Source of the DNA: Ancylobacter aquaticus
GTDB lineage: Bacteria; Pseudomonadota; Alphaproteobacteria; Rhizobiales; Xanthobacteraceae
Assembly: GCF_004339465.1 (NCBI RefSeq)
Contig: NZ_SMFY01000002.1
Span: forward strand, 186,001-250,000
DNA: 64,000 nucleotides
Direction: 5' to 3'
The notes below the pieces were generated by a model. That model was given only the letters and a program-made list of their open reading frames with translations, did no database searches and had not been told where the DNA came from. The translations under genes and the position numbers were made by a program. Numbering within the stretch: the first letter of the stretch is position 1; the number at the start of each line of letters is the position of its first letter. This document shows positions 33,270-64,000 of this stretch, piece by piece.

Positions 33270-33289
33270 GGGCTCACTCCTTCCATGGC

Positions 33290-33778: not shown

Positions 33779-35046
33779 CCGAACGCCTCGGTGGTGATCG
33801 TGCCGAACCACGCCTCGCCATAGGCTGCCTCCTCGGCGCGCACGGCCTGCGGGGCGTCGAGCGGCGAGGTGCCGCCGGCGCCTTCGACCTCGGCGAGCAG
33901 GCCGTTCTGCGGGCTGTACACGCCGGCGATGGAGATGCCGTAGTCCGGTGCCAGCAGGCTGTAGCAGGTGTTGATCAGCTTCGGCTCGGCCGGCATGCGG
34001 CCGCGCAGCAGCGCGATGACGGCGCTGGCGCAGGCCTTGGCCTGGGCGTTGGCCGTGAAGGCGGATTTCGGCATGGCCCCGCCAATGGCGGCGTCGCCGA
34101 TGACATGAACGCCAGGCACAAGGCGGGACTCAAACGTGACGGGGTCGATGGGGCACCAGCCGGTCTGGTCGGCGACGCCGGCAATGGAGGCAATGGCGCC
34201 GGCGCGCTGCGGGGGGATGACATTCGCCACCGCCGCGCGATGCTCTCCGAATTCCGTGCGCAGGGTCCAGGTCGCAGCGTCCACCTCGGTCACGCGGCCG
34301 CCGAAGGACAGCCCGACCCATTCGATCATGCCTGGATAAAGCGTAGCCCAGCCGGCCTGGAACAAGCGCTGCTTGGAGAAGGCGTCCTTGGCGTCGAGGA
34401 TGAGGATCTTGGAGCGCGGCTTGTGCGTCTTGAGGTAGCTAGCAACCAGGCTCGCCCGCTCATAGGGGCCAGGCGGGCAGCGAAACGGATTGGGCGGCGC
34501 GGAAATGACAACGAGCCCACCATCGGGCATCACCTCCAGTTGCCGGCGCAGCAGCAGGGTTTGCTCACCCGCCTTCCAGGCATGGGGCATCAGCTCTGCC
34601 GCAGCGGCGTCATAACCGGGGATGGCGTCGAACCGCATGTCGATGCCAGGCGCCACGACGAGTCGGTCATAGCCGAGCCGTACCTCGTCGGCGAGCACGA
34701 CGCGACGCTGGTCCGCCTCCACCCGCACCGCTTTTTGCGGCACATGAATGATGCCGTCCGCCTCGATCCCGGCATAGCCGAAATGCTGGGCGTTCATGTC
34801 GCGCAACCCGGCGATCACCGAATTGCTGAGCGGGCAGGCGGTGTAGTGCGCATTGGGCTCGATCAGGGCCACCGCGATGCCGGGGTCTTCGCGCTTGAGG
34901 GTACGGGCAACACTCGCCCCGCCGAACCCGCCGCCAATCACCACCACTCTTGGTGGAGCCTGCGCCAGCACGGAAGGGCTGGCCAAGGCGACACACGCCC
35001 CCGCTGCCAGCCCGCCGAGAACGCGCCTACGGCTGAGCGGGAGCAT
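33775..35046 (-). CDS. soxF: flavocytochrome c sulfide dehydrogenase flavoprotein (FccB/SoxF)
   Basis: The 423-aa protein has a Tat signal (LSRRRVLGGLAAGACVALAS), FAD-binding VVVIGGGFGGASVA, redox Cys71 in CPLSNSVIAG, VVISAPPNPFRCPPGPYERA and a late second Cys in INTCYSLLAPDYG. These are the features of FccB/SoxF, which oxidise sulfide to sulfur and pass electrons to a cytochrome subunit. The ATG at 35046 lies 20 bases inside the upstream cytochrome gene; an earlier ATG at 35109 would put extra residues before the signal. The adjacent monohaem cytochrome is the likely partner. Confidence 0.93.
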   Translation of the reverse strand: MLPLSRRRVLGGLAAGACVALASPSVLAQAPPRVVVIGGGFGGASVARTLKREDPGIAVALIEPNAHYTACPLSNSVIAGLRDMNAQHFGYAGIEADGIIHVPQKAVRVEADQRRVVLADEVRLGYDRLVVAPGIDMRFDAIPGYDAAAAELMPHAWKAGEQTLLLRRQLEVMPDGGLVVISAPPNPFRCPPGPYERASLVASYLKTHKPRSKILILDAKDAFSKQRLFQAGWATLYPGMIEWVGLSFGGRVTEVDAATWTLRTEFGEHRAAVANVIPPQRAGAIASIAGVADQTGWCPIDPVTFESRLVPGVHVIGDAAIGGAMPKSAFTANAQAKACASAVIALLRGRMPAEPKLINTCYSLLAPDYGISIAGVYSPQNGLLAEVEGAGGTSPLDAPQAVRAEEAAYGEAWFGTITTEAFG

Positions 35047-35332
35047 TGCCTCCAGCGGCGAAGTACTCGGCGATGGCCTGTGTTTCCTCATCGGTGAAAC
35101 CCTTGGCAATGCGCGCCATCACGGTCGAGCGGCGTTCGCCCGAGCGGAACGCCGCCATCTGCGCCGCGATCTGCTCGGCCGGCTGCCCGTTGAGGCTTGG
35201 CACCGGCCCATTGGTTGCGGTGCGCGGATGACAGCCGGAGCACGAGGCCGCCCCGCGCGGGGGCGCGGCCTCCGCCGGCGCAGCGGAGATGAAAAGCCAC
35301 AGCGCCGGCAGCATGAAATGAAACAGGCGCAT
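35027..35332 (-). CDS. small monohaem cytochrome c
   Basis: The 101-aa product has a signal peptide (FMLPALWLFISAAPAEAA) and one haem site CSGCH (31-35). The segments SLNGQPAEQIAAQMAAFRSGERR and MARIAKGFTDEETQAIAEYF match FccA-type class I cytochromes. It lies between the molybdenum hydroxylase and the sulfide dehydrogenase flavoprotein, sharing bases with both genes, so it could carry electrons from either. Its resemblance to FccA suggests the flavoprotein; hydroxylases of this type also use a c-type cytochrome. Confidence 0.9.
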   Translation of the reverse strand: MRLFHFMLPALWLFISAAPAEAAPPRGAASCSGCHPRTATNGPVPSLNGQPAEQIAAQMAAFRSGERRSTVMARIAKGFTDEETQAIAEYFAAGGNAPAQP

Positions 35333-37524
35333 CACGCAAGCTCGTGGTTCTTCAGCGGCATGGTGCGGTAGCGCTTGCCGGTGGCGGCAAACAGCGCGTT
35401 GAGCACCGCCGGGGCGGCGACGGCAATGGTGGGCTCGCCCACCCCGCCCCAGAAGCCGCCGGAGGGCAGCATGATGGTTTCCACGGCGGGCATCTGCGCC
35501 ATGCGCAGCACCTCGTAGGTGTCGAAGTTCTCCTCCTCCATCCGTCCGCCGGCCAGCGTGCATTCGCCATAGAGGCAGGCCGAGAGGCCGTAGACGAAGG
35601 ACCCCTCGACCTGCCGCTCGACCTGCGCCGGGTTTACCACATGGCCGGGATCGGTGGCGGCGACGATGCGGTGGATCTTCAGCTCGCCGTTCTCCACCGA
35701 CACTTCGGCGGCGGCAGCGACATAGGAGCCGAAACCCATGATCTGGCCGAGACCGCGAAAGCGCCCTTCAGCCGGCGGCGTGTCCCAGCCGATTCCGTTC
35801 GCCGCGGCTTCCAGCACCGCGAGATGCTTGGGATGGTTCGCCATCAGCTTGCGGCGGAAAGCGAGCGGCTCGGCGCCTGCGGCATGGGCCAGTTCGTCGA
35901 TGAAGCATTCGACATAGATTGCGTTCTGGTTGAGGTTCACCCCGCGCCAGAAGCCGGGCGGCACCGGCGGGTTGCGCATGGCGTGGTCGATCAGGAGGTT
36001 CGGCACGGTATAGGCGAGGTGACCCTCCGGCAGCTTCGCCGTCAGCCCCTGGAACACCACCGGGTCCATGCCGCCCTGCATACCTTCCGGCCGCACTGCC
36101 GCGAGTATCGACTGGCCGGAAATACGCAGGTGCAGCGCCGTGAGATTTCCCTCTGCGTCCAGCGCCCCGGTGAGCTTGGCCTGTGTGGTCGGGTGATAGG
36201 CGCCGTGCAGCATGTCCTCCTCACGCGTCCACAGCAGCTTGACCGGGGTGCCCGGCATCTGCTTGGCGATGCTGACCGACTGGCGGACATAGTCCTGGAA
36301 ATTGCCGCGCCGCCCGAAGCCACCGCCGAGATGGATCTTGTACACTTCGCACTGGCCGACCGGCAGGCCGGCCGCCTCGGCGACGGCGGCGAGGCTGGCT
36401 TCGCCGTTTTGGGTGGGCACCCACACCTCGCATTTGTCAGCGGTATAGAGCGCGGTGGAATTCATCGGCTCCATGGTGGCGTGGTTCTGGTAGGGATAGG
36501 CATAGGTGGCGGTGATCACCTTGCCGCCGGCGGCCGACACGCGGGCAAACTCGGCCTTGGCATCGCCCTGGCTGTTGCCGATGAACGCCTCTTCGGCCTC
36601 AAGCCCTTCCGCCAGCATCGCCCGGATATCCGCGCTGCTCAGGTCCTTGTTGGGACCCTCGTCCCAAATGATCGGCAGCGCGTCGAGCGCGGTCTTGGCG
36701 CGCCACCAAGTGTCGGCGACAACGGCGACGGAGCGATCGTCGACCTTCACCACCTTCTTCACGCCCGGCATTTTTTCAACCGCCGACGCATCGAAGCTAG
36801 TGAGCGTGCCGCCGAAGACGGGGCAGGCCTTGATCGCCGCGTTCAGCATGCCGGGAAGCTGAAGGTCGGCGCCGTAAACCTGCTTGCCGGTGAGCTTCTC
36901 CACCGTGTCGAGGCGCGGCAGCGGCTTGCCGGCGATCTTCCAGTCCTTCGGGTCCTTGAGCGTCACCTCGGCCGGCGGCGTCTGGCGCCCGGCAGCTTCC
37001 GACACCTCGCCGAAGCGCAGGGTGCGCCCGCTGGGGCCATGGGTGATGACGCTGTTGGCTGCCGTGCACTCACTGGGGGGCACGCCCCACTGCTCAGCCG
37101 CCGCAGCCACCAGCATGTGGCGGGCCGCGGCGCCACCCTTGCGGACATAGTCATGCGAATCGCGGATGCCCCGGCTGCCGCCGGTGGAGTAGCTGCCCCA
37201 GACGCGGTCGCGCTTCAGGTTCTCTCCCGGCGTCGGGTATTCGGTCGTGACCTTCGACCAATCGCCTTCGAGCTCTTCGACGACCAACTGGGCGAGGCCG
37301 GTGAGCGTGCCCTGCCCCATTTCCGAGCGGGCGATGCGGATAACGATCGTGTCGTCCGGCTTAACCACCACCCAGGCATTGATCTCGGGCGGCAGCGTCG
37401 CGGCAGTGTCCTGCGCCAGTGCCGGCGCTATGAACGGGATATGGAAGCCGAGCGACAGGCCGCCGAGCGAGGCGGCCGAGCCGACGATGAAATTCCGGCG
37501 CGAGACCGACTGAACAATGCTCAT
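35332..37524 (-). CDS. molybdopterin-binding subunit of an isoquinoline/aldehyde-type periplasmic oxidoreductase (IorB-like, copy 1)
   Basis: The 730-aa protein carries a Tat signal (VSRRNFIVGSAASLGG) and belongs to the xanthine-dehydrogenase-family molybdenum hydroxylases of the IorB type. Family blocks seen are RSEMGQGTLTGLAQLVVEEL, YQNHATMEPMNSTA, HLGGGFGRRGNFQDY and, near the end, WGGVGEPTIAVAAPAV, whose Glu is the catalytic base. It forms an enzyme with the 2Fe-2S subunit twelve bases upstream and acts in the periplasm on aldehydes or N-heterocycles. Unusually, its stop overlaps a cytochrome gene that leads into FCSD and sox genes in one operon. Confidence 0.93.
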   Translation of the reverse strand: MSIVQSVSRRNFIVGSAASLGGLSLGFHIPFIAPALAQDTAATLPPEINAWVVVKPDDTIVIRIARSEMGQGTLTGLAQLVVEELEGDWSKVTTEYPTPGENLKRDRVWGSYSTGGSRGIRDSHDYVRKGGAAARHMLVAAAAEQWGVPPSECTAANSVITHGPSGRTLRFGEVSEAAGRQTPPAEVTLKDPKDWKIAGKPLPRLDTVEKLTGKQVYGADLQLPGMLNAAIKACPVFGGTLTSFDASAVEKMPGVKKVVKVDDRSVAVVADTWWRAKTALDALPIIWDEGPNKDLSSADIRAMLAEGLEAEEAFIGNSQGDAKAEFARVSAAGGKVITATYAYPYQNHATMEPMNSTALYTADKCEVWVPTQNGEASLAAVAEAAGLPVGQCEVYKIHLGGGFGRRGNFQDYVRQSVSIAKQMPGTPVKLLWTREEDMLHGAYHPTTQAKLTGALDAEGNLTALHLRISGQSILAAVRPEGMQGGMDPVVFQGLTAKLPEGHLAYTVPNLLIDHAMRNPPVPPGFWRGVNLNQNAIYVECFIDELAHAAGAEPLAFRRKLMANHPKHLAVLEAAANGIGWDTPPAEGRFRGLGQIMGFGSYVAAAAEVSVENGELKIHRIVAATDPGHVVNPAQVERQVEGSFVYGLSACLYGECTLAGGRMEEENFDTYEVLRMAQMPAVETIMLPSGGFWGGVGEPTIAVAAPAVLNALFAATGKRYRTMPLKNHELA

Positions 37525-37535
37525 GGCGCTCTCCC

Positions 37536-37994
37536 TCAGCCGGCTTTGCCGTCGGCTGCCATATGGATGGCAGCGCGGACGCGGTTATAGGTGCCGCAGC
37601 GGCAGATATTGGTGATCTCGGCGTTGACGTCGTCGTCGCTCGGCTTGGGGTTGGTCTCAAGCAGGCTCGCCACCGCCATGATCATGCCGGTCTGGCAGTA
37701 GCCGCACTGGGGAACCTCGAGCGCGAGCCACGCCTTCTGCACCGGGTGCGAGCCATCGGGCGACAGGCCCTCGATGGTGACGATCTTCTGGGTGGGCTCG
37801 ATGGCCGAGAGCGGCATCACGCAGGAACGTGTCGCTACCCCGTCAATATGCACGGTGCAGGCGCCGCATATGGCAATGCCGCAGCCGAACTTGGTGCCGG
37901 TAAGGCCAACCTGCTCGCGAAGCACCCAGAGAAGCGGCGTATCGGGCTCGGCCTCGATGTTGTGCGTCTGCCCGTTGACGGTGAGCTGGACCAT
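37536..37994 (-). CDS. 2Fe-2S subunit of the same molybdenum hydroxylase (IorA-like, copy 1)
   Basis: The 152-aa protein holds both 2Fe-2S clusters of this family: the ferredoxin-type [18 protein letters not shown] and the helical [11 protein letters not shown] with [12 protein letters not shown]. It transfers electrons from the molybdenum centre. No signal peptide is seen, so it should be co-exported with the Tat-targeted large subunit. ATG at 37994 is the start; the open frame continues upstream only through Arg-rich sequence. First gene of the eight-gene operon that ends with soxA. Confidence 0.95.
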
Positions 37995-38215
37995 GGTGGA
38001 CTCCCGGCTGGAGAAACGGTGCATGCCGCGCGGGCCGCAAGCATGAGAACTCCCGGCGACAGGGCGGCTGGCGTTGTTCGACCGATGAACGCTAGGGAAG
38101 CGCTGTCGCAGAAGCGTGCCGCGCGCGGGTCTTATTGTCGCGAGCTGTCGCAGGGGCAGCCCTTGATAAGAATTGATACAAAGTGGGGCGCCAAGCGACG
38201 AGCGCCCCACCGCTC
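37995..38215. other. promoter region of the molybdenum hydroxylase/sox operon
   Basis: A 221-base gap before the first operon gene and after the convergent-strand end of the epimerase-like gene. The sequence near 38160-38185 (CCTTGATAAGAATTGATACAAAG in outline) is AT-richer than the surroundings and could hold the promoter of the operon or the 3' end of the neighbour. No repeat or small gene seen. Confidence 0.3.
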
Positions 38216-39121
38216 TCAATGCGCGCCGACCGGGAAATAACCCGCTTGCCCGATGTCGGTCAGAAGGTCCGGCCCGGTTGGCTGCCACCCCAGAAGGCGC
38301 CGGGTCCGTTCACTGGCGGCCGGCTCGTCGAGCGCTGTGAAGCGGGCGAACCAGCCGAAATGCTCGCGCGCTTCGTCCGGGCTCAGCGACACGCAGGGGA
38401 GGTCGAGTCCGGCCGCGATGGCCTGCGCGATCTCCCGGAAGGGGATGCCCAGTTCGCCCGCCGCATGGAAGGTCTCGGCGCTCGGGCCGCGCTCGATGGC
38501 GAGGCGGAAGGCGCGGGCGGCGTCGGCGACATGCACGGCCGGCCAGGCGTTGGTGCCCTGGCCGATATAGGCGGAGCGGCCCTTTTCCCGCGCCATGTCG
38601 ATCAGCATGGGCACGAATCCGTGGTCGCCCCTTCCGTGAACGGATGGCGGCAGGCGCATGATTGCGGTGGGGATACCACGGGCAGAAAGCGTGCGTGCCG
38701 CCATGTCGGACGCGCGCGGATAGAGATCGGACGGCGGCGGGGCGACGTCGTTTTCCGTCACGGGGTTTCCGGCGACTGCCAGACCGGCTAGCCCGGCGGT
38801 GACGATGAACGCCTTGCCCGTCCCCTCGATCGCAGCGCCGACCGCCTCGATGGCCGCGCGATCAATCGCACAGGCCTGCGCATAGCGCGCGAAATCGTGG
38901 ATGAAGCCGGTGTGGATGATCGCATCGCAGCTCCGCGCGCCCTCGCGCAGCGTTTCCGGTGCCTCCAGTTCGCCACGAAGAACCTCCGCACCCGCTTGCC
39001 GGAGTCCGTCCGCGCTCCGGTCGGAGCGGGCCAGCCCCAAAACCCCGTGCCCGTTCGCCAGAAGTTCCGCCGTCACGGCCGAGCCGACAAAGCCGGTCGC
39101 GCCGGTCACAAATACTTGCAT
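38216..39121 (-). CDS. NAD-dependent epimerase/dehydratase-family (extended SDR) oxidoreductase
   Basis: A 301-aa protein with the atypical extended-SDR nucleotide motif [19 protein letters not shown] and [14 protein letters not shown]. Late segments [19 protein letters not shown] and [17 protein letters not shown] are typical of the group often annotated as NAD(P)-dependent oxidoreductases next to MmyB-type regulators. The catalytic Tyr-x-x-x-Lys is not classical: the area reads [12 protein letters not shown]. It is transcribed divergently from the XRE-family regulator at 39200, which probably controls it. Confidence 0.88.
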
Positions 39122-39199
39122 GACTATTCTCCTTCTTGTCGGCGAGGAGAATAAGAGCCAAACTATATCCAGTTAAATGAGTGACTTTATACAGGTATA

Positions 39200-40036
39200 A
39201 TGTCTAACATGCTGCACGATGATGGTGCCACGCACCGGCTTGGCGCGTTCCTCAGGGACCGTCGACAGCGGCTCGACGCGGCCGCGCTCGGTTTTGGCGG
39301 TCGCCGGCGGACACCGGGCCTGCGGCGCGAGGAAGTGGCGCAGCGCGCCCATATCAGCACCACCTGGTACACATGGCTGGAGCAGGGGCGCGGCGGGGCT
39401 CCCTCGCCGCGCGTGCTGGATAGTCTTGCCCGTGCGCTGATGATGACCGAGGCGGAGCGGGAGCACCTGTTTCTGGTGGGCATCGGTCATCGTCCCAAGG
39501 CGCACGCCCCCGCGCAGGAGGGCATTTCGGGGCGGCTGCAGCGCTTTCTCGACGCCATGCCGACGATCCCGGCCACCGTTGCGACCGCCACCTGGGACAT
39601 CATCGGCTGGAACCGCGCGGCGCGGCTCGCTCTCGCCGACTACGAGGCGATGGCGCCGGAGGAGCGCAACATCCTGCGGCGGATGTTCCTCGACCCTGTC
39701 ACCCGCGCGGCCCAGACCGACTGGGAGGCCGTGGCCCGCTTCCTGGTCGCGACGTTTCGCGCCGAGACCGCGCGGGCCGGCGCCGACGAGCGCGCGGGGG
39801 AACTCGTCACCGAACTCTCAGCCGGAAGCGCCGATTTCGCCCGCCTGTGGGGCGAGAACGACGTGCAGATGACCGGGGAGGGCGCGAAGACGCTACGCCA
39901 CGCGCTGGTGGGTGAGATCACCTTCGAGTTCTCGTCCTTCGCCATTGATGGCAGGCCGGACCTTCGGCTGATGGCCTATGTGCCCGCAACGGCCGTCGAC
40001 ATTGAGAAAATGAGCCGACTTTGCTGCGTCTCTTAG
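39200..40036 (+). CDS. XRE-family regulator with MmyB-like ligand-binding domain
   Basis: The 278-aa protein has an N-terminal helix-turn-helix (TPGLRREEVAQRAHISTTWYTWLEQGR, key Leu-Arg-Arg-Glu-Glu-Val) and a C-terminal MmyB-type PAS-like domain that includes TWDIIGWNRAARLALADY and NILRRMFLDP. Such regulators usually repress a divergent oxidoreductase gene and respond to a small lipid-like ligand. The 78-base divergent gap to the epimerase-like gene is AT-rich, with TATATCC and TATACAGGTATAAT segments suited to a promoter and operator. Confidence 0.92.
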   Translation: MSNMLHDDGATHRLGAFLRDRRQRLDAAALGFGGRRRTPGLRREEVAQRAHISTTWYTWLEQGRGGAPSPRVLDSLARALMMTEAEREHLFLVGIGHRPKAHAPAQEGISGRLQRFLDAMPTIPATVATATWDIIGWNRAARLALADYEAMAPEERNILRRMFLDPVTRAAQTDWEAVARFLVATFRAETARAGADERAGELVTELSAGSADFARLWGENDVQMTGEGAKTLRHALVGEITFEFSSFAIDGRPDLRLMAYVPATAVDIEKMSRLCCVS

Positions 40037-40116
40037 TTGCGTTTCGTCAATCCCGTCTGCATCACTAGAGAACTCATTTGCCGGCTCTCTATCAACAGGA
40101 CCAGCTCTGGAACGCC

Positions 40117-41043
40117 ATGGATCCGCTCTCTGACGTCCTCTCTCTGCTGAAGCCCCATGCCTATGTTTCCTCCGGTTTCGAGGCCGGGGGCGACTGGGCG
40201 GTGCAGTTCGGCGACCAGAGTGCGCTGATCAAGTGTTACGCCGTCGTCTCCGGCGGCGGCTGGCTCACCGTCGAGGGGGTGAGCGAGCCGGTGCGGCTTG
40301 AGACCGGCGAGTGTTTCGTGCTGCCGAGAGGCCGCCCGTTCCGAATGGGCAGCTGCCTCACTCTGGCGGCCACACCCTCTCGCGAGATATTCCCGCCTGC
40401 CCGGAATGGCGGAGTGGTGAAGCTGAATGGCGGCGGCGGATTCGCCCTTGTCGGCAGCCGTTTCGGCGTCAGTGGCCACCATGCCGACATGCTGCTCGGG
40501 TTGCTGCCGCCGATTGTCCATATCACCGGGCAGGCGGGACAGACGGCGCTGCGCTGGTCGGTTGAGGAAATGATGAAGGAGTTGCGCGAGCGCCAGGCCG
40601 GCAACGCGCTGGTGCTCCAGCATCTCGCCCATATGATGCTGGTGCAGGCGCTTCGCGTGCATCTGGAGGCCGGCGCCGGCGTCGGCTGGCTGTCCGCGCT
40701 GGCGGACCGGCAGCTTGGGGCGGCGATCCGGGCGATCCACGCCGATCCCGCCCATGGCTGGACCCTGCAGGATCTGGCTGAGCGGTCCGGCATGTCACGC
40801 ACGACCTTCGCGCTGCGGTTCCGGGAGAACGTGGGCGAGCCACCGATGCAATATGTCGCCCGCTGGCGCATGCTGCTCGCCGGAGATCGGCTGGAGAATA
40901 GCGGCGATCCCATCGGGGTGATCGCGCTGGCGCTGGGCTATGAATCGGAAAGCGCCTTCAGCACCGCGTTCAAGCGGGTCATGGGCTGTTCGCCACGCCA
41001 TTATGGGCGCATGTCCCGGGCCGTTACCCGAGCGGCGGAATAG
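40117..41043 (+). CDS. AraC-family transcriptional regulator with cupin domain
   Basis: The 308-aa regulator has an N-terminal cupin-type sensor (AraC_binding_2-like; LETGECFVLPRGRPFRMGS) and a C-terminal double helix-turn-helix (DLAERSGMSRTTFALRFRENVGEPPMQYVARWRM and IALALGYESESAFSTAFKRVMGCSPRHYG). I chose the ATG at 40117; a TTG at 40078 is also in frame. The 3' end overlaps the convergent xdhC-like gene by 43 bases. Regulators of this class often control nearby oxidoreductase genes; the second molybdenum hydroxylase set is the nearest candidate. Confidence 0.92.
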   Translation: MDPLSDVLSLLKPHAYVSSGFEAGGDWAVQFGDQSALIKCYAVVSGGGWLTVEGVSEPVRLETGECFVLPRGRPFRMGSCLTLAATPSREIFPPARNGGVVKLNGGGGFALVGSRFGVSGHHADMLLGLLPPIVHITGQAGQTALRWSVEEMMKELRERQAGNALVLQHLAHMMLVQALRVHLEAGAGVGWLSALADRQLGAAIRAIHADPAHGWTLQDLAERSGMSRTTFALRFRENVGEPPMQYVARWRMLLAGDRLENSGDPIGVIALALGYESESAFSTAFKRVMGCSPRHYGRMSRAVTRAAE

Positions 41044-41999
41044 CGGCGCGCAACCGGTGGAGGATCAAGCGAGACGAGAGACGGAAACTGCCTCTGCTCG
41101 GCTTCCATGATTTCCGCGAGGATCGACACCGCAATGGCATGGGCGCTCTTCGTGCCATGGAACAACCCGGCCGGTCCGCGTATGCGCGCCACCTCCGCCG
41201 CGCTGAATCCCGCGTTGAGCAGGCGTTGGCGGCGCGCCGCATGCACCATCCGGCTGCCCTGCGCGCCAATGTAGAAGGCTTCGCTCGCCAATGCGGCCGC
41301 GAGGAACTCGTATTCCCATTCGTGATCGTGGAACATCAGGACAAAAGCGGTGCGCGCATCCGCTGCGAACTCCTCGGCATGGCCGGTACTGTGGATGGGC
41401 CGGGCGAGCACCCCGTCCCGGGCGCAGGCCGCGCGCGTCGGCGCGTCTGGCGAGAGCAACTCGGTCTCGAAGCCACTGACCTTGCCTAACAGCAGGAGTT
41501 GAGCCGCTGCGGGGCCGACCCCGGCCACAATAAGCCGCCGGTTCGGGCGGTAGTGCCGCGTCAGCATCAGGCCCTGCTCGCCCGGGGCCGGACCGATTTC
41601 AACCGTGCTCTCCTCGCGAGCCAGATACGCCTGTTCCAGTTTCTCCAGCCGGGCGATGGTCGCCGTGACGTCGAAATAAAGCGCGATCGCGCTGCCACAG
41701 GGCAACTGGATATCGAGATATTGCGAGTCCTTGCCATACCGGACGAGACGGTTGGCGCCGGCTTCCATCGCCTCGATCGCCTCGGTTATCACGGCACGTT
41801 CAAGGCAGCCCCCCGAGAGATAGCCGACGGCTTCGCCGGCTTCGGTGACGGCCATCTGGGCGCCGAGCTGGCGCGGGGCGGCGCCATCGATTGAGAAGAG
41901 CGTGACAATCGCGACACGCTTGCCCTCGCGCAGGCGCGCAAGGGCGAAGTCGATGACTTGATCGGCGAAGGGGTCCCAGCTACCATCGGGCCTCTGCAT
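41001..41999 (-). CDS. XdhC-family molybdenum cofactor maturation protein
   Basis: A 332-aa XdhC/CoxI-family protein: N-terminal RVAIVTLFSIDGAAPRQLGAQMAV, YLSGGCLERAVI with the conserved Cys, LPCGSAIALYF, and a C-terminal Rossmann domain with LIVAGVGPAAAQLLLLG and FVLMFHDHEWEYEFL. Family members insert the sulfurated molybdenum cofactor into xanthine-dehydrogenase-type enzymes. It follows the second molybdopterin subunit on the same strand with a 42-base gap, so it should serve that enzyme and possibly copy 1. Confidence 0.93.
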   Translation of the reverse strand: MQRPDGSWDPFADQVIDFALARLREGKRVAIVTLFSIDGAAPRQLGAQMAVTEAGEAVGYLSGGCLERAVITEAIEAMEAGANRLVRYGKDSQYLDIQLPCGSAIALYFDVTATIARLEKLEQAYLAREESTVEIGPAPGEQGLMLTRHYRPNRRLIVAGVGPAAAQLLLLGKVSGFETELLSPDAPTRAACARDGVLARPIHSTGHAEEFAADARTAFVLMFHDHEWEYEFLAAALASEAFYIGAQGSRMVHAARRQRLLNAGFSAAEVARIRGPAGLFHGTKSAHAIAVSILAEIMEAEQRQFPSLVSLDPPPVARRYSAARVTARDMRP

Positions 42000-56288: not shown

Positions 56289-57530
56289 TCAGTAATCCAC
56301 CGCGTCCCGGATGATCGGGCAGGTCATGCAATGGCCGCCACCACGTCCACGACCGAGTTCGGAGCCGTCAATGGTGATGACCTCGATGCCGGCCTTGCGC
56401 AGCAGCGTGTTAGCGTAGGTGTTGCGGTCATACGCGAAGACGACGCCCGGCGAGGCGCAGACCAGATTGGCACCGGAATCCCATTGGGTGCGCTCGCGCA
56501 TATAGTCGTTGCCGCCGGTGTGGACGACACGCATTTCCTTGAGGCCCAGCGCCTCGCGCACGGTCTCGACCAGGCCCCCCTTGTCCTTGTGCAGTTCGAT
56601 CCCGCCCTTGCCGTTCGGGCGGTAGGAGAAGCACTCGATCTTGTCGACGATGTCGGGGTAGAGCAGCACGCAGTCCCGGTCGGCGAAGGTGAACACCGTA
56701 TCGAGATGCATCGCCGCGCGCAGCTTCGGCATGGCGGCGATGATGACGCGCTCGGCGGCGCCCTGCTCGAACAGCGCGGCGGCAAGCTGACTTATGGCCT
56801 GGCGCGAGGTCCGCTCGCTCATGCCGATCAGCACGTTGCCCTTACCGATCGGCATCACGTCGCCACCTTCAAGCGTGGCGAGGCCCCAATCCTTGGTGGG
56901 GTCGCCCCACCACACCTTCACCTTGCCGGCGAAGTCCGGGTGGAATTTGTAGATCGAGGTGGTGAGGATGGTCTCTTCATGCCGCGCCGGCCAATAGAGC
57001 GGGTTCTGTGTCACCCCGCCATAGATCCAGCAGGTGGTGTCGCGGGTGTAGAGCGTGTTGGGCAGCGGCGGCAGCAGATACTCGTTGACGCCGGCGGCGT
57101 CGCGGATCAGCGCCAGCGTCTCGCCGCCGATGGTCTCGGGGAATTCATAGGTCGAGAGACCGCCGATAAGCGTCTCCGCCAGCTGGCGATTCGGCAGCCC
57201 GTCGAGATAGGAGCGCACTTCGTCAACGAAGCCGACGCCGATCGTGTTCGGCACCACCTGATGGTCGAGAATCCAGGCCTTTGCCTCGGGGATGGCGACC
57301 GTCTCGGTCAGCAGATTGTGCATCTCGACGACGTCGATGCCGCGGTCACGCATCTTGGTGATGAAGTCGAAATGGTCGCGCTTGGCGACATCGACCCACA
57401 GCACGTCGTCGAACAGGAGCTGGTCGCAATTGCTGGGCGTCAGGCGCTGATGGGCGCGGCCGGGCGCGCAGACCATGACCTTGCGCAGCTGGCCAACCTC
57501 GGAGTGAACGCCGAAGGGGGTTTCCATCAT
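56289..57530 (-). CDS. arcA: arginine deiminase
   Basis: The 413-aa enzyme hydrolyses arginine to citrulline and ammonia. Family motifs are present from [41 protein letters not shown] and [23 protein letters not shown] to [18 protein letters not shown]. The catalytic Cys401 is in GGGHCMTCP near the C-terminus, at the same distance from the end as in the Pseudomonas enzyme. The ATG at 57530 has AGGAG just upstream. It is placed between two antiporter genes, all on the same strand; ornithine carbamoyltransferase and carbamate kinase genes are not in the window. Confidence 0.97.
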
Positions 57531-57552
57531 GGGGCTCCTATGCGTGATCTGA

Positions 57553-58989
57553 TCAGGGTGTGATGGTGCCGGTGACAAGCCCGTACACGCCAATGGCGGC
57601 CGCCACTCCGGTGATGCCGAAAATGACCAGTTCGACCCGCGTGAACACGCGGGCCTTCTGTTCGCGGCGGGCCCAGAAATAGAGAAGGATCGTGCCCGGC
57701 ACGAACAGCACCGCCACCAGCAGCACATACTTCAGGCCGGCGGCGACGAACATGAACAGCGTGTAGACCACCGCGATCCACGCGAAGATCTGGTCGCGGG
57801 TGCGCTCATGCGGCGCCGCCTCATATCCGACGCCGCTGCGGGCCAACAGCACGCCATAGCCGGCGACCAGCAGATAGGGCAGCAGCGCGGTAACGCTGGT
57901 CATGTCGAGCATGAAATTGAAGGCGTCGCGCGACCAGTAGGTCGAGACGACGAACAGCGAGACCACGATGTTGGTCAGCCACAGCGCATTTGCGGGCACG
58001 CGATTGCCGTTCTGCGCGGCGAACAGCTTCGGCATGTCCTGCGATTTGGCGGCGGCGAACAGCACTTCCGCGCAGATCAGCGACCATGCCAGATAGGCGC
58101 CAAGCACCGAGACCAGCACGCCGATCGAGATGAAGATCGCGCCCCAATGGCCGACCACCAGTTCGAGCGCACCGGCGAGCGAAGGGTTAGCCACTCCAGC
58201 GATCTCCGCGCGCGGCGCGGTTGCATAGGGCAGCATGGTCACGGCGACCATCAGGCCGGTGACGGCGACGAAGCCGAGGATGGTGGCGGTGCCGACATCC
58301 GAGCGCTTCTTGGCGAAGCGGGAATAGACGCTCGCGCCCTCGATACCGAGGAACACGAAGACGGTGATCAGCATCGTGTCGCGCACCTGCGCCAGCAGCG
58401 TCTTTTCCGGCATGTTCACGCCGCCGAAGAAGTTCTCCGAGAACTGCGCGTAATTGAAGAAGAACACGAAGGCCAGGATCGCAACGATCAGCGGCACGAT
58501 CTTGGCGATGGTGACGATGGTGTTGATGACGGTCGCCTGCTCGACGCCGCGCAGGATCATGAAATGAAAGGCCCAGATGCCGCAGAGCGAGACGAGGATC
58601 GCGGTGGCGCTGGAGCCGTCGCCGAACAGATCGGGGAAGAAGCGCCCGAGCGTCGAGCCGATCAGCACCCAGTAGAACACGTTGCCGAGGCAGCTTCCCA
58701 GCCAGTAGCCGAAGGCCGAAAGGAAGCCCATATAGTCGCCGAAGCCGGCCTTGGCGTAGGCGAACACGCCGGAATCGATGTCCGGCCGCTTTTCCGCCAG
58801 CGCCTGGAACACCCGTGCCAGCATGTACATGCCGGTGCCCGCGATCGCCCAGGCGATGATCGCGCCAAATGGCCCCGTCGCCGTGGCAAAGCGCCCGGGC
58901 AAATTGAAGATGCCGGCGCCGACCATGGAGCCAACCACCATGGCGGTGAGGGTGGGAAGCGAGAGCTTGCCAGCGGAGGTGTCAGCCAT
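57553..58989 (-). CDS. arcD: arginine/ornithine antiporter ArcD-like (copy 1)
   Basis: A 478-aa twelve-helix APC-superfamily antiporter with [73 protein letters not shown] and [18 protein letters not shown]. It is the first gene of the arcD-arcA-arcD unit, with 22 bases to arcA. ATG at 58989 was chosen; the frame upstream is not antiporter-like. Together the two antiporters and arginine deiminase suggest arginine import with ornithine or citrulline export. Confidence 0.93.
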
Positions 58990-59310
58990 TGCGCGCCTCT
59001 TGGAGAAAGGGGGAAGCGTGGCTCGCTCAACCCTAAAGTCAGCACTCATTCCAAGAAATGGGCGGGCCCTCCCAAATGGTGTCGTGCGACTCCAATCTTA
59101 CCGCTTTTGCGGCAAAGGGCCACCTCCCGGGCATGCTGCGAAAGCGAAGGGCGCCTGAGCTTGGCCGGCAAGGAAAGCAGGGAGTTTCTTCGCGAATGCA
59201 ATATAACTTCTGCCTCACCCGGGTTGTGGCAATGAACGGATGATCCGTAACAAACGTCCGCACTTCTTGCGCCCGGCGAATACCCTGCGCCGGTGAGGGC
59301 GCGGCCATCG
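58990..59310. other. intergenic region between the arc operon and the thiocyanate-dehydrogenase operon end
   Basis: 321 bases that should contain the arc promoter (near 59040-59240, with an AT-rich patch around 59200) and the 3' end of the neighbouring operon. I see no Anr/FNR-type TTGAT-N4-ATCAA box by eye, although arginine deiminase is often under such control, and no small gene. Confidence 0.35.
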
Positions 59311-60180
59311 CTAATGGGGAGGCATCGGAATGAAGGCGGGCGGGACGCCACGGAAGCCTGCCCGTTGCCGTATCGCCGCATCATCGGCATCGTGCGGCTT
59401 CAGGTAGAAATAGAAGCGGTTGTTGCGATCCGCGATGTCGTCGCCCGGCTCACTCGACAGGCTTATCAGCTGGTCGAACTGGAGCTGCACATGCATGTAG
59501 CCGGGAATAAGTTCGCTCCACCCCTCGATGTCGGCATCGAACAACACGTCGACATCGGTCCCGCCATCGAGCTTGAGCAGGCCCCATGGGGTGCCGTCAG
59601 GCGACCGAGAAGCCACCTCCTGCCAGGTCAGCCCGGTCTGAATGAAGACGCGGGGAGGGTTCTGCAGGATGTAGAGGGTCGATCCGCCGCCAACCCGCTC
59701 GATCCGCAATGTTGCCCGATAGGCGGCTTTCCCGGGATCGTAGCCGGCGCGCACGAGTTCCATGAACAGCCCTCCGGACGCCGCCTGTTCAGTGCGTTGG
59801 ACCTCTGCCCGCCGCGCGGCCATCTGCGCCTGCTGATACCGGCCGATCGCAAAATCGGCGAGGAAGGCGAGGGCGATCACGACCACGAAGATCTGCAGGG
59901 GGCGATAGTCAAGAAGGCGCGATATCCCGCCTGCGCGGGTCGCGAACGACTGGTTGCGGCTTGACCGGGAGGTGGTGCGGATGCGCTCGCGCAACGCCTG
60001 CACCCGGCTGTCATCGAGCGAGCGGCCGGCGGCAGGCTCTTCGACCGGAAGCGGCGCCTGCGCCTCTCCCGCGTCGGCGTCTTTGTCTAGCGCCTGCACC
60101 GTCTCCCACAGGCTGAGGATCAGCGCGTCCTTCTCGGACGGCGTAAGGCGATCGAGGTCCGGCAGGCGCGGCGTTTTCAT
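59311..60180 (-). CDS. membrane-anchored protein of unknown function in the thiocyanate-dehydrogenase operon
   Basis: The 289-aa protein has a cytosolic N-terminal part (about 1-95: TPSEKDALILSLWETVQALD, then a Pro/Ala/Glu-rich stretch), one membrane helix (IFVVVIALAFLADFAI), and a periplasmic part of about 165 residues (GLTWQEVASRSPDGTPWGLLKLDGGTDVDVLFDADIEGW in outline; marker GTDVDVLFDADIEGW). I recognise no family. Its start overlaps the stop of the ABC ATPase gene by four bases, so it is translationally coupled and probably a structural or substrate-handling part of the ABC exporter. Confidence 0.7.
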   Translation of the reverse strand: MKTPRLPDLDRLTPSEKDALILSLWETVQALDKDADAGEAQAPLPVEEPAAGRSLDDSRVQALRERIRTTSRSSRNQSFATRAGGISRLLDYRPLQIFVVVIALAFLADFAIGRYQQAQMAARRAEVQRTEQAASGGLFMELVRAGYDPGKAAYRATLRIERVGGGSTLYILQNPPRVFIQTGLTWQEVASRSPDGTPWGLLKLDGGTDVDVLFDADIEGWSELIPGYMHVQLQFDQLISLSSEPGDDIADRNNRFYFYLKPHDADDAAIRQRAGFRGVPPAFIPMPPH

Positions 60181-60845
60181 GGAACGACCACGCCGTCCGC
60201 GATGTGGACGATCCGCTGCGCCTGCGCCGCCAGAGCGAGGTTGTGCGTGACCAGCACGAGAGTCGTGCCGCGCGAGCGACTGATATCGCGCAGCAGTGCC
60301 ATGATCTCCCGCTCGGTCTGCTCGTCGAGGTCGGAGGTCGGCTCGTCGCCGAGCAGCAAAGCGGGATCGTTCATCAGCGCGCGGGCAATGGCCACCCGCC
60401 GCTGCTCACCGGAGGAAAGCTCGAACGGGAAGGCCTCGGCGTGGCTGTCCAGCCCGACATCGGCGAGCCGCTCCAAAGCCCGTTCCAATATGGCGCGGCG
60501 CGACATCGTGCCGGCCAGTCGCGCGGGCAGGGCGACATTGTCGAGCGCCCTAAGGTTCGGCAGCAGGCTGGCGAATTGGAAGACGAAGCCGATCCGGGCG
60601 TTGCGGAACGCCGCCGCTCCGGCCTCGGACAAGGCCCAGATATCGGTGCCGCCAATGAGCACGCGCCCGCCCGTGGGACGGCTCAGCCCGCCGATCATGC
60701 CCAGCAGCGATGATTTGCCGGAACCGGAGCGCCCGACAATGGCGGCGTAGCAGCCGCTCTCGATGTCGAGGTCGACGCTGCGCACCGCCGCCACCGGCCC
60801 CCGGTCGGTCTCGTACTGCTTTGTCAGGCCACGGCAGGCGAGCAT
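60177..60845 (-). CDS. LolD/MacB-type ABC transporter ATPase
   Basis: A 222-aa ATPase with Walker A VGRSGSGKSSLL, signature LSSGEQRRVAIARAL (Ser in place of the first Gly of LSGGE), Walker B LLLGDEPTSDLD and His in VLVTHNLA. The DEPTSDLD form and size fit the LolD/MacB group that works with FtsX-like permeases. The ATG at 60845 is two bases from the permease stop; the stop overlaps the downstream membrane protein gene. It energises the permease just upstream and not an importer, as no binding protein is near. Confidence 0.9.
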   Translation of the reverse strand: MLACRGLTKQYETDRGPVAAVRSVDLDIESGCYAAIVGRSGSGKSSLLGMIGGLSRPTGGRVLIGGTDIWALSEAGAAAFRNARIGFVFQFASLLPNLRALDNVALPARLAGTMSRRAILERALERLADVGLDSHAEAFPFELSSGEQRRVAIARALMNDPALLLGDEPTSDLDEQTEREIMALLRDISRSRGTTLVLVTHNLALAAQAQRIVHIADGVVVP

Positions 60846-60847
60846 GC

Positions 60848-62077
60848 TCAGCCCTCCTTCCACAGCAGGTCGTGCGTGTCCCGGCGGCCCATGCGCCAGG
60901 CTGGAAACCATGCGCCGGCCATGCCGACGAGGGCTGCGCCAGCGACGCACAGCGCGGCGATGGCGGCCGTGCCGGCGCCGTCCAGCCATAGGAACGGAAT
61001 GCCCATCTCACTGAGGTGATGCACCAGGGCGCGCTCGAACAGGCGCAAGAGGAGCAGGCCAAGCACCACGCCCAGCGCTCCGCCGGCGGCGGTGGCAAAC
61101 GCGGCTTCCGCCACGGCGATAGCCACGATCTGGCCGGGGCGCGCGCCGATTGCCTTGAGCAGCCCCATTTCACGGCGGCGCTCCGCCATGATGGCGGAGA
61201 ACAGCACCATGACCATGACGGCAGTGCTGGCGGATAACGCCACGACAAGCAGCACGAGCCCGCCGAGCAGCGCCACCAGCCCTTGCCGGATTCCGGTCAG
61301 CAGCGAGCCGCCGACGATCACCTTGATGCCGGCGACATTGGACAGCAGCGCGAAGCGCAGCTGAAGCTCGGAAACGCCGGGCGCCAGCTGAACGAGAAAT
61401 CCGGTGACGTTGGCGGGCTCCAGCATCGGCGGCACCGCGCCCGTGCGCGCCTGCACGTCGTCACCCAGGCCAATCAGGCTGGCCATGTGAAGGAATACCC
61501 CGCGCTCCTGCGTGCCGGACCCGGTGCGCGCCAACTTCCCATAAACGCGGAAGGGCTGCCCGAAAAGCACGACCTGCGTGCCGAGCGGCAGGTTGCGTGC
61601 TGCGCCGAGGATGACGTCGCCGGGCTGCATAGGCCCGGTGAGCCGTTCCGACAGCCAGGGTAGAATGGTGAAATCGGTCGCCGGGTCGAAGCCGATCAAA
61701 TCGACCAGTTCCCCCGCTCCGCCAAGGCCGGACTGGTCGGTTCGCAGGATGCGCTGGGCGGCGAGCCGGGCGATGCCGGCCACGTCGGCACGCGCCAGTG
61801 CATCGGCGGGCAGGGTGCTGTCGGTCGGTTCGACGGTGAGCAGTGCGTCAGTCAGGTTGGTCAGCGCTGCCTGGTTCACCACCATGAGGTCGGCGCCAAC
61901 CCGGCTGAGGCCGATCTGCATGCTCGCGACCACGCTGCGCATGGCGACCACGCCGCCAAAGGTGACGGCGCTGGCCACGGCGATGGCGGCAACAAGCAGC
62001 AAGGTGCGTGACTGGCGGCGGCCAAGATTTTGAACCGCCAGCGCCAGCACGAGCCGGCACGAGGAGGCCGCGGACAT
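60848..62077 (-). CDS. FtsX/MacB-like ABC transporter permease
   Basis: The 409-aa protein has one N-terminal helix (LLLVAAIAVASAVTFGGVVAM), a periplasmic domain of roughly 200 residues, and three C-terminal helices (LVALLGGLVLLVVALSASTAVMV, AAFATAAGGALGVVLGLLLL, AAIAALCVAGAALVGMAGAW), the MacB/LolE-like layout. AERRREMGLLKAIGARPGQI is the coupling loop. It follows the copper-oxidase gene by 31 bases, pointing to a role in its maturation or export. Similar ABC systems accompany nosZ-type enzymes. Confidence 0.9.
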   Translation of the reverse strand: MSAASSCRLVLALAVQNLGRRQSRTLLLVAAIAVASAVTFGGVVAMRSVVASMQIGLSRVGADLMVVNQAALTNLTDALLTVEPTDSTLPADALARADVAGIARLAAQRILRTDQSGLGGAGELVDLIGFDPATDFTILPWLSERLTGPMQPGDVILGAARNLPLGTQVVLFGQPFRVYGKLARTGSGTQERGVFLHMASLIGLGDDVQARTGAVPPMLEPANVTGFLVQLAPGVSELQLRFALLSNVAGIKVIVGGSLLTGIRQGLVALLGGLVLLVVALSASTAVMVMVLFSAIMAERRREMGLLKAIGARPGQIVAIAVAEAAFATAAGGALGVVLGLLLLRLFERALVHHLSEMGIPFLWLDGAGTAAIAALCVAGAALVGMAGAWFPAWRMGRRDTHDLLWKEG

Positions 62078-62108
62078 CAGCCTGAATATCCGTGCCGGAT
62101 GCGCGTGC

Positions 62109-63935
62109 TTACAGAGTGCATGAACGGGTGTGCTTCATGTGCTCCATCTCGGTCGGGACGATCACGCAGTCATGGTGCCCGCCCGAGCTTGGCAGGATGC
62201 CGATCAGATTGTCGGTCGCGGTCTCGATCACGGCGATGCCGCTCGACAGCCGTTGGAAACCGCTGAACGGCACCAGTACGAACTTGCCGTCATAGGTGAT
62301 GGCCGGTGTCTGCAGATCGGGGCCGATGCCCTGAATCTCCTTTTTGATCGTCCATGTGTCGGTATCCACCACCATCACCCCGCTGGCGGCGGGTGCGGGG
62401 TGCAACACGGAAAGGTAGAGTTTTTTCGAATCGAGCGAGAACACCATGTGGAACGGGTTGGGATACTTGCCCCGCCACAGCGGGTCCTCGACATGGGCGA
62501 TCTTCTTCCAGTTGCGCGGGTCGGGATCGGAGGAATCGAACACCGAGCAGTTGTTCTCGCGCAGATTGTTCATCATGCACAGGAAGCGCCCGTCGGGGGA
62601 AAAACCGATCTCGTGGCCGGGCGAGTGGATCTTGTCGAACGTCACCTCCCAGCGGTCCTCGGCAACCTCGACGACGTCGTACTGGTCCTGTGACGCGGTG
62701 TTGAACTGGAGGAAGGCGGCGGGGGCGAAGTTGTTCTCGGCATCGAGAATGGCGATGCCGCCGCACAGGCGCACCACCGTCGCAGCCCAGCGCCCGCTCG
62801 GGTGCCAGATGGTGCCGTCCGCGCCGGTGAGACCCATCGGGTCGTCGCCGGGCAGCGTGCCTTCCTCGACGAAGAGTTCGCCCATGGGAACCATTTCCCA
62901 GTCGATCTTCTGGCCCTTCGTGCCGAGATAGTCGTATTTGCCGGTAACCGAATCCGGATAGATGCGGTAGATCGTCAGCACGCCGCCATCTTGCCAGGCG
63001 CGCGCGAGCTGGCTGGAATTGGCCTTCCAGTCGAATTTCAGCGCCGCCTTCACCTGCGACGTCGTGCGGTCGAAGCAGGCGGCGATGTCCTTCTGGCCGT
63101 CGGTGACGAAATAGGACTGCGCGTCCTTGGGGTTGATCGTCACATGCACGCCCAGCCCGAGGCCGGTGGTCTCCGAGACGTTCTCCATCAGCTGCATCTG
63201 CGCGCCGTCATAGCGCACGCGGTAGATGTTGAAGCCTGGCGCCGGCTCGGTGATGTTGGTCGGGATGCCGTAGATGAGCGCGTTCTTGCCGCCCTGGGTG
63301 GAGTTGACGAACTCGAACGAGTGATAGGGATCGGCGCTGGGAAAGGCGCAGAGATGGTGGGCGATCGGGTTGAAGTCGCCATAGTTCCAGTACCAGATCG
63401 ACGCCAGTACGCGGTTGGTGTTGAGATCGAGCGCGTAGCAGCCGCCACCGAGCTTGGTCGGCAACACCGCCACCCATTTGCCGAGGCCCTTGCCGTCGAA
63501 GCTGGCCCGTGAATCGATCAGCTCGCGGGTGATCGGGGCCGCTTGCGGCCCGGGCGTCGCGGCGCCGGCGGGCGTGGTGCCGAGGCCGACGGCGTCAAGC
63601 GCGCCGCTTTGCACCGCGTGATAGCCGAGCACGCCGGTTTCGGCGATGAGCGCGGTGGCGGCGGCGGCCTTGAACACGTTGCGCCGCGTCAGCCGCGTCG
63701 GAGCGGGCGCTTCCTCCGGGAGCGGCGCGAGCGGCAGCAGCGGCTGGGCGGCGAGGGCGCGGGCCTGCTTTTCGCGCAGATAGTCCTGGAACTCTTCGTG
63801 ATCCGAGCGCACGACCTCGTTCCGCCGTGTGAGATAGGCGTCGATCTGGGCGCGCGTCGCGTCGAGTGGTTCGAGATTTAGATCGGTCGGCGCCTTCCGG
63901 CCGCTCGTCGCCTCGGTCTTGTCCAGCTCGCTCAT
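62109..63935 (-). CDS. tcDH: thiocyanate-dehydrogenase-like Tat-exported copper beta-propeller oxidase
   Basis: The 608-aa protein has a twin-arginine signal at residues 84-85 (LTRRNVFKAAAATALIAETG), after an unusually long 80-residue cytosolic stretch, then a beta-propeller with many conserved His: NPIAHHLCAFPS (193-194), GLGVHVTINPK (264), IWHPSGRW, KIHSPGHEIGFSPDG, NPFHMVFSLD, LHPAPAASG and a C-terminal SSGGHHDCVIVPTEMEH. This His-rich pattern is the one I know from thiocyanate dehydrogenase, a copper enzyme distantly related to nitrous oxide reductase that oxidises thiocyanate to cyanate and sulfur in the periplasm. No NosZ CuA domain is present. Assignment is by recall of the family; the substrate is inferred. 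Confidence 0.75.
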   Translation of the reverse strand: MSELDKTEATSGRKAPTDLNLEPLDATRAQIDAYLTRRNEVVRSDHEEFQDYLREKQARALAAQPLLPLAPLPEEAPAPTRLTRRNVFKAAAATALIAETGVLGYHAVQSGALDAVGLGTTPAGAATPGPQAAPITRELIDSRASFDGKGLGKWVAVLPTKLGGGCYALDLNTNRVLASIWYWNYGDFNPIAHHLCAFPSADPYHSFEFVNSTQGGKNALIYGIPTNITEPAPGFNIYRVRYDGAQMQLMENVSETTGLGLGVHVTINPKDAQSYFVTDGQKDIAACFDRTTSQVKAALKFDWKANSSQLARAWQDGGVLTIYRIYPDSVTGKYDYLGTKGQKIDWEMVPMGELFVEEGTLPGDDPMGLTGADGTIWHPSGRWAATVVRLCGGIAILDAENNFAPAAFLQFNTASQDQYDVVEVAEDRWEVTFDKIHSPGHEIGFSPDGRFLCMMNNLRENNCSVFDSSDPDPRNWKKIAHVEDPLWRGKYPNPFHMVFSLDSKKLYLSVLHPAPAASGVMVVDTDTWTIKKEIQGIGPDLQTPAITYDGKFVLVPFSGFQRLSSGIAVIETATDNLIGILPSSGGHHDCVIVPTEMEHMKHTRSCTL

Positions 63936-64000
63936 CTTTCGTTCCCCTGCCTGTCGTACCGGCGTCGTTCACCGGCCTTCCTGCCTGTATTCAACTCTGT

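Follow-up and report, generated by a model that had tools for sequence, protein, structure and literature searches.

The question raised by this locus is whether an exported enzyme encoded at the edge of a stretch of the Ancylobacter aquaticus genome is a thiocyanate dehydrogenase (TcDH), and what the transporter genes directly behind it might do. The stretch analyzed, called the window here, comprises 64,000 nucleotides (contig NZ_SMFY01000002.1; G000:C2:186001-250000). A preliminary description had proposed a minus-strand operon of four genes at 59311-63935, overlapping or at most 31 bases apart and encoding a TcDH-like protein, an FtsX-type permease, an ABC ATPase and an uncharacterised membrane-anchored protein (the anchor protein). 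This operon is confirmed and its coordinates hold: the enzyme and permease genes are spaced by 31 bases, the ATG of the ATPase gene starts 2 bases past the permease stop, and the ATPase and anchor genes overlap by 4 bases. The placement of the enzyme in the TcDH family holds as well, but the label ‘thiocyanate dehydrogenase’ is at odds with one tested defining feature, an active-site histidine. Judged from its sequence, the locus is best described as a conserved operon with a single ABC set, headed by a TcDH-family enzyme of the Gln482 type.

The catalytic part of the enzyme (residues ∼150-607) matched the TcDH chains of the Protein Data Bank (PDB) with E-values of 7.5e-155 to 7.8e-146. Nitrous oxide reductase (N2OR) and cd1 nitrite reductase scored far weaker (E ∼1e-10), so that among the solved structures no N2OR-like family is nearer than TcDH, an outcome which the preliminary description had left to be checked. 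No above-cut-off match was obtained in Pfam or NCBIfam. A structural model based on 23 aligned sequences, with a mean pLDDT of 78 and most blocks of the catalytic domain near 90, could be overlaid on the TcDH chains with an rmsd of 1.4-1.5 at 49-51% identity and a TM(target) of 0.93-0.96. The TcDHs of Thioalkalivibrio paradoxus and Pelomicrobium methylotrophicum (5F75, 5OEX, 8Q9X) share this fold and a Tat-type signal, of which the twin Arg was read by eye at residues 84-85 of the enzyme in TRRNVFK. The region before this motif is longer in the closest relatives of the enzyme (the window-type defined below) than in others (17 rows), and the model draws a helix at residues 25-62 within it at low confidence. 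It is concluded that the enzyme is a full-length, Tat-type member of the TcDH family with the TcDH propeller fold.

Relatives were collected by scanning genome contigs with a 14-row profile, and the best 80 of 101 relatives, corresponding to 79 named loci, are the basis of the named-locus counts given here. By tree and identity, these were sorted into 54 window-type loci, 14 methanotroph-type loci (Methylocystis/Methylocystaceae, Methylocapsa, a Beijerinckiaceae metagenome-assembled genome (MAG) labelled USCa, Methylococcaceae and one Hyphomicrobiales), one locus of Tautonia, four type II loci, which are like Pelomicrobium and Thioalkalivibrio, and six type I loci (Guyparkeria, Thiohalobacter, Paracoccus thiocyanatus, and Thiobacillus and Hydrogenophilales MAGs). 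Window-type, methanotroph-type and Tautonia loci together are called the Gln group (n = 69). L001, L004, L005, L018 and L022 (self or fragments) were left out of the active-site residue table. In the position comparisons over 78 rows, L069, L070, L071, L077 and L097 (broken or partial) were left out and some genomes occur twice under two locus names; the named-locus counts are free of these double entries.

The TcDH active site is described as consisting of 13 residues, Lys103, His135, His136, Gln156, His206, Glu288, Asp314, His381, His437, His482, His528, Asp529 and Arg544 (PMC6504805). These align with Lys161, His193, His194, Gln214, His264, Glu347, Asp373, His441, His496, Gln542, His588, Asp589 and Arg604 of the enzyme studied here. 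Twelve of the 13 are kept, and the sole change is that of His482 (Thioalkalivibrio; His447 in Pelomicrobium) to Gln542. The His pattern of TcDH claimed earlier is thus present with one gap, and the loss of conserved copper ligands, named in the preliminary description as a sign against its own reading, is found at one of the 13 active-site positions. The same residue has been placed at the same position by engineering: the PDB titles read ‘His 482 replaced by Gln’ for 6SJI and ‘H447Q substitution’ for 8YU5 and 8YU6. The window enzyme scored slightly better against 8YU5 than against 8Q9X and against 6SJI than against 5OEX, the better chain being the one with Gln. The engineered mutants differ from it in their His-type background, with Trp at 512 and Gly at 351. 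Since one active-site His is replaced by Gln, turnover of thiocyanate cannot be assumed.

The exchange is fixed in a large group. Gln is found at the 482 place in 67 of the 69 Gln-group loci (52/54 window-type, 14/14 methanotroph-type and the one Tautonia locus), and the two loci without a readable Gln, L070 and L077, are broken or truncated. These 67 occurrences rule out an error of sequencing or assembly. The carriers are Xanthobacteraceae, Reyranella, methanotrophs and one planctomycete, Tautonia. His stands at this place in 4/4 type II loci, in 5/6 type I loci (L097 is broken) and in the wild-type PDB chains shown, and it is kept in the homologues from Guyparkeria and Thiohalobacter, both of which oxidise thiocyanate. 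The equivalents of Lys103, Glu288 and Asp314 and the other active-site residues are kept in all readable Gln-group named loci with one exception, the partial locus L071, which has Ser at the Gln156 place. Other positions change together with the Gln. His512 is present in 64/69 Gln-group loci (52/54 window-type and 12/14 methanotroph-type, with Tyr in the other two), and the position is occupied by Asp in Tautonia, Trp in type II and Ala in type I, so that Leu-His stands here for the Trp-Trp of the Thioalkalivibrio and Pelomicrobium enzymes at 511-512. The Methylococcaceae MAG enzymes L080 and L081 have the Gln but Tyr at 512, and the Gln-type enzyme of Tautonia (L076), which sits on a long branch, has Trp at 511. 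Further positions that split with the Gln are Thr160, Asn211, Met351, Gly440, Ser500, Leu511, Ser518 and Arg562. No paper on the Gln type was found in the open-licence literature, by which absence from print is not claimed.

A careful tree of 45 rows was calculated with Tautonia and columns 351, 511, 512 and 542 removed. In it, the Gln rows form one side of a branch with a support of 98/86, and a single His/Gln change was obtained in 96% of 200 bootstrap trees. On this tree only one origin of the Gln is needed. In a quick tree that includes Tautonia, the support of the Gln-group branch was only 33-34; Tautonia is possibly an independent His-to-Gln change. When the catalytic part was compared with five near relatives, dN/dS values of 0.06-0.12 were obtained, and two relatives further away gave 0.16-0.17, showing that the enzyme gene is under purifying selection. 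That the enzyme is a relic is ruled out by a dN/dS of ∼0.1.

The transporter genes belong with the enzyme, as they recur beside it. Their assignment as FtsX-type permease and ABC ATPase agrees with Pfam, and the best NCBIfam matches were ADOP, LolC/E and MacB for the permease and LolD for the ATPase, all below cut-offs. The domain make-up of MacB/LolCDE (FtsX domain, periplasmic MacB-like core domain, LolD-like ATPase) is therefore present at scores under those of the curated models; a further difference from these systems is that separate permease and ATPase genes are tied to one enzyme. The anchor protein, as described before, has a single strongly hydrophobic stretch (residues 95-113) and matched neither Pfam nor NCBIfam models at E-values up to 0.1; in its model, the membrane stretch is part of a long helix, and a beta-sandwich is also present.

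Neighbouring genes were identified by phmmer with five proteins against all open reading frames (ORFs) of the loci. Where 3.3 kb or more of downstream sequence was available (46 window-type loci), the scripted search detected the permease in 44, the ATPase in 45 and the anchor, separate or fused, in all 46. In L060 the permease ORF begins 5′ of the enzyme and in L070 the genes precede the enzyme; with these two counted, the operon was present in all 46 loci. All three genes occur in 11 of 12 methanotroph-type loci, 10 of which encode the ATPase and the anchor as a fusion, which is good evidence that both act together. Fusions were seen in L017, L063, L068, L070, L082, L083, L085-L090, L092 and L095 (methanotroph-type and a few window-type). 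The four type II loci all have two ATPases and two anchors, with a weak second permease match, and by score the Gln-group ABC pair resembles their enzyme-proximal pair. Near the type I enzymes no ABC or anchor genes were found (0/5 loci). The anchor ends in Met-Pro-Pro-His in 61/61 Gln-group copies found, one per locus, and in 4/8 type II copies, one of the two per locus; a Tyr-Met-His further in is almost invariant (27 aligned rows). Within the genus, the enzyme occurs in 5/30 genomes (own genome counted). All five carriers have the anchor, and the single match among the 25 non-carriers is a scar in which a fragment of the permease gene and a broken anchor gene are left (L103 8374-9640 in G802, a genome without the enzyme), as if the operon set had been lost together.

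Copper chaperone genes, which had been considered possible upstream of the enzyme past 64000, are rejected: over ∼13 kb beyond this point, 14 ORFs (at least 120 aa) gave no Pfam match to CopC, CopD, SCO or cyanase at E 0.001. The next gene encodes a membrane J-domain-like protein (P0005) with hydrophobic helices and a C-terminal J-like domain, which has HPD at 198-200 and a J-domain score of 25.2 bits (cut-off 27.8). A CopD match of its membrane part (19.2 bits versus a cut-off of 32.1, E 0.0016) was not used. Of 45 window-type loci that extend 0.9 kb or more upstream, 42 encode a relative of this protein near the enzyme, six of them on the same strand. Its full-length form is present in 4/5 enzyme carriers of the genus and in 0/25 non-carriers; all but one of the 30 genus genomes give a match that is shorter and weaker and probably represents a housekeeping J protein. 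Further upstream, Pfam recognised a racemase, an amidohydrolase, an amino-acid ABC set, a GntR regulator, glyoxalase, Sir2, cold-shock, DUF192 and PCC. A phage-type integrase is encoded ∼12 kb upstream of the enzyme (L004 17153-18385, window equivalent ∼75152-76384).

Table 1. Positions of the genes, motifs and codons discussed, in window coordinates.
Feature	Position	Strand	Evidence or remark
TcDH-family enzyme, Gln482-type	62109..63935	-	608 aa; 49-51% identity, TM(target) 0.93-0.96 to TcDH chains
FtsX/MacB-type ABC permease with periplasmic core domain	60848..62077	-	FtsX 3.2e-17, MacB_PCD 5e-7 (Pfam)
ABC ATPase, LolD/MacB-like	60177..60845 (start approximate)	-	ABC_tran 2.8e-30 (Pfam); Walker A GRSGSGKS, LSSGE
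Membrane-anchored protein, C-terminal Met-Pro-Pro-His	59311..60180	-	helices, one membrane helix, beta-sandwich
Twin-arginine motif TRRNVFK, enzyme residues 83-89	63669..63689	-	by eye; preceded by N-region of ∼80 residues
Codon CAG, Gln542 at the place of TcDH His482/His447	62310..62312	-	alignment; PDB titles of engineered mutants
Codon CAC, His512, gained in Gln group; Trp in Thioalkalivibrio/Pelomicrobium type	62400..62402	-	alignment
Gap 5′ of enzyme gene	63936..64000	-	window end; J-domain-like gene next
Membrane J-domain-like protein, 258 aa	equivalent 64008-64784 (L004 6009-6785)	-	just beyond window, 72 bases from enzyme

It appears rather probable that the operon encodes a copper enzyme which derives from TcDH and has a rebuilt site, together with an ABC machine dedicated to its assembly. 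We infer the copper content, the substrate and the electron acceptor of the enzyme, and the roles of the ABC, anchor and J-like proteins, as follows. In the periplasm, the Tat-exported propeller enzyme would take electrons from a small anion that contains sulfur or nitrogen, either thiocyanate or a related one, and hand them on to a cytochrome c. Its copper site would be rebuilt by the Gln in place of His482 and by His512, gained two strands earlier in the chain, so that one copper may be held differently or fewer coppers may be bound. For TcDH itself, a mechanism was proposed in which Cu1 binds N and Cu2 and Cu3 bind S in a two-electron oxidation to cyanate and sulfur (PMC9456337). The other products would form a machine that fits the enzyme out: permease and ATPase may be an ATP-driven mechanical engine acting on the periplasmic side, which together with the Met/His-ended anchor would load or renew the enzyme copper, as NosFY, NosD and NosL do for N2OR. 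The J-domain-like protein may hold the precursor with its long N-region ahead of Tat export.

The assembly role is likened to NosDFY/NosL, where an exported copper propeller enzyme likewise has genes for an ABC ATPase, a permease and an accessory protein beside it (PMC7558416). The permease here is, however, of the FtsX/MacB type and no NosD or NosL homologue was recognised; a copper role would be by analogy. A likeness is also found in Thioalkalivibrio, where an ABC permease and ATPase and a single-helix anchored protein follow the enzyme; these ABC genes rise on thiocyanate and were proposed to act in copper acquisition (PMC5328954, PMC5744179). Compared with that cluster, the locus studied here looks like a reduced form, which has a single ABC pair and a single anchor where that cluster has two of each. 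It also differs by the upstream J-domain-like gene, and no copCD, tatA or fccAB was recognised by Pfam beside the enzyme among the 14 upstream ORFs and neighbouring window genes (tatA only within these scans). The homologues of Guyparkeria sp. SCN-R1, Thiohalobacter thiocyanaticus and Paracoccus thiocyanatus belong to the same family (∼31-34% identity) and share the other active-site residues, but keep the His and have no ABC or anchor genes nearby. Paracoccus thiocyanatus uses thiocyanate. Cus-type genes are described beside the Guyparkeria and Thiohalobacter homologues (PMC6504805).

Several observations weigh against a rebuilt site served by its own assembly machine. The place of His512 in the model, after the second strand of its blade and at about the place of Gln156 (Gln214 here) in another blade, comes from strand register only, with no distance behind it. 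Some other proteins use Gln to ligate copper, so that the exchange may have a mild effect. Tautonia and the Methylococcaceae locus L081 have the Gln without ABC genes nearby (8 kb downstream searched in L081). The fold search with the anchor gave TM-scores of at most 0.38 (Kir-channel and pilin beta-sandwiches), and thus no reliable PDB relative. In relatives of the J protein, the HPD is often DPD or unclear, as classified by a rough regular expression that left 9/49 unclassified, and one carrier (L025/G1012) has no J gene. The Thioalkalivibrio ABC genes were compared by description, with type II loci of other bacteria standing in for them. According to PMC5744179, the motifs by which P1B ATPases transport copper are missing from the Thioalkalivibrio transporter, and no metal-binding domain is predicted in it.

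That last point would also fit a different role of the ABC pair and anchor, as a LolCDE/MacB-like device that takes sulfur formed as product, or a lipoprotein, away from the enzyme rather than loading copper, and the best NCBIfam matches, all under their cut-offs, point the same way. This role is nevertheless unlikely, as all 61 Gln-group anchors end in Met-Pro-Pro-His, and none of the five type I loci (Guyparkeria, Thiohalobacter, Paracoccus thiocyanatus) has such genes nearby, although sulfur is the reported product of the pathway in the first two (PMC6504805). The two ABC pairs and two anchors of type II against one of each in the Gln type suggest that the number of ABC modules may track the number or kind of coppers. 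Tentatively, the Gln group could be a separate TcDH-derived copper oxidoreductase of methanotrophs and other alphaproteobacteria with a different physiological substrate, in which the trinuclear site was converted by loss of His482 and recruitment of His512 and perhaps Met351, and the loading kit shrank with the site. Loss of an active-site His might even mean that catalysis is lost and that the protein is a copper store or sensor; with the other active-site residues kept in the readable Gln-group loci, except for the Ser in L071, and with a low dN/dS, this is very improbable.

It is doubtful that the enzyme is an ordinary thiocyanate dehydrogenase which converts thiocyanate to cyanate and sulfur and in which the Gln, as copper ligand or second-shell group, has little effect. 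The 12 kept residues and the ABC/anchor layout, which is like that induced by thiocyanate in Thioalkalivibrio (PMC5744179), are consistent with it, and the Gln-type carriers L044 and L066 look, from our reading of their titles, like thiocyanate-reactor samples. However, the enzymes shown or reported to be active on thiocyanate, those of Thioalkalivibrio, Pelomicrobium, Guyparkeria and Thiohalobacter, have His, and positions 160, 211, 351, 440, 500, 511, 512, 518 and 562 split likewise. The presence of an FCSD flavoprotein and a SoxY domain within the same window would also favour thiocyanate turnover, and the preliminary description had linked the enzyme to a Sox/FCSD operon. At 32772-35109 (-), a SoxY-domain protein indeed adjoins an FCSD flavoprotein, located ∼27 kb from the enzyme, but SoxB gave no match in the whole genome, so that this is a partial sulfur module and no full Sox system. 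In the genus, SoxB scored above cut-off in 1/5 enzyme carriers and 7/25 non-carriers. A link to the Sox system is rejected, given the missing SoxB and the lack of an association in the genus.

Cyanase gave no match in the genome and in 0/30 genus genomes. This speaks against an ordinary TcDH, but PMC6504805 says that Thioalkalivibrio lacks cyanase too, and reports one for Guyparkeria and Thiohalobacter. In 27 genomes hand-picked from the 79 named loci, cyanase was found in 9 (type I 3/4, type II 0/4, window-type 6/10, methanotroph-type 0/8, Tautonia 0/1); the built-in control of this search responded only in Synechococcus, and the cyanases of Guyparkeria and Thiohalobacter were detected. As the groups are not separated, the presence of cyanase was rejected as a marker of function.

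For a TcDH-derived enzyme with a changed site, the His-to-Gln mutants made by crystallographers correspond to a state that has become fixed in a large natural group, so that the mutant structures can serve as models of living enzymes. In turn, the natural Gln enzymes reveal the accompanying changes, Trp to His at 512 and Gly to Met at 351, under maintained selection. Annotating Gln-type genes as thiocyanate dehydrogenase is not advisable. The unsettled role of the ABC transporters next to TcDH becomes testable in this locus, because the set has shrunk to a single permease, a single ATPase and a single anchor.

In the preliminary description, TcDHs were said to be best known from haloalkaliphilic gammaproteobacteria. 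The family is wider than this and is extended here to methanotrophs and to soil and water alphaproteobacteria; the named loci of the window subfamily are mostly alphaproteobacterial. Beyond the genus, the enzyme was found in 13/391 genomes of the family sample, three of them type I with 35-36% identity, in 3/385 of the class sample and in 2/398 of the phylum sample (own genome counted in each). It is also encoded on two plasmid records of Methylocella tundrae, and the one examined carries the whole block including the J gene and labels the enzyme gene as hypothetical. The patchy distribution and the Methylocella plasmid copy fit a candidate mobile block.

A scan for promoters and terminators gave fewer sites than were present in shuffled sequences, and nothing was found in the viral_contigs scan. 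PADLOC returned two matches, both of the permease to CARF/LolE models. Elsewhere in the window, a molybdopterin-binding subunit, a 2Fe-2S subunit and an XdhC-like gene at 35332-41999 (-) form a xanthine-dehydrogenase/CO-dehydrogenase-type set, and an arginine deiminase (ADI, 2.3e-129) and an amino-acid permease at 56289-59049 (-) adjoin the operon.

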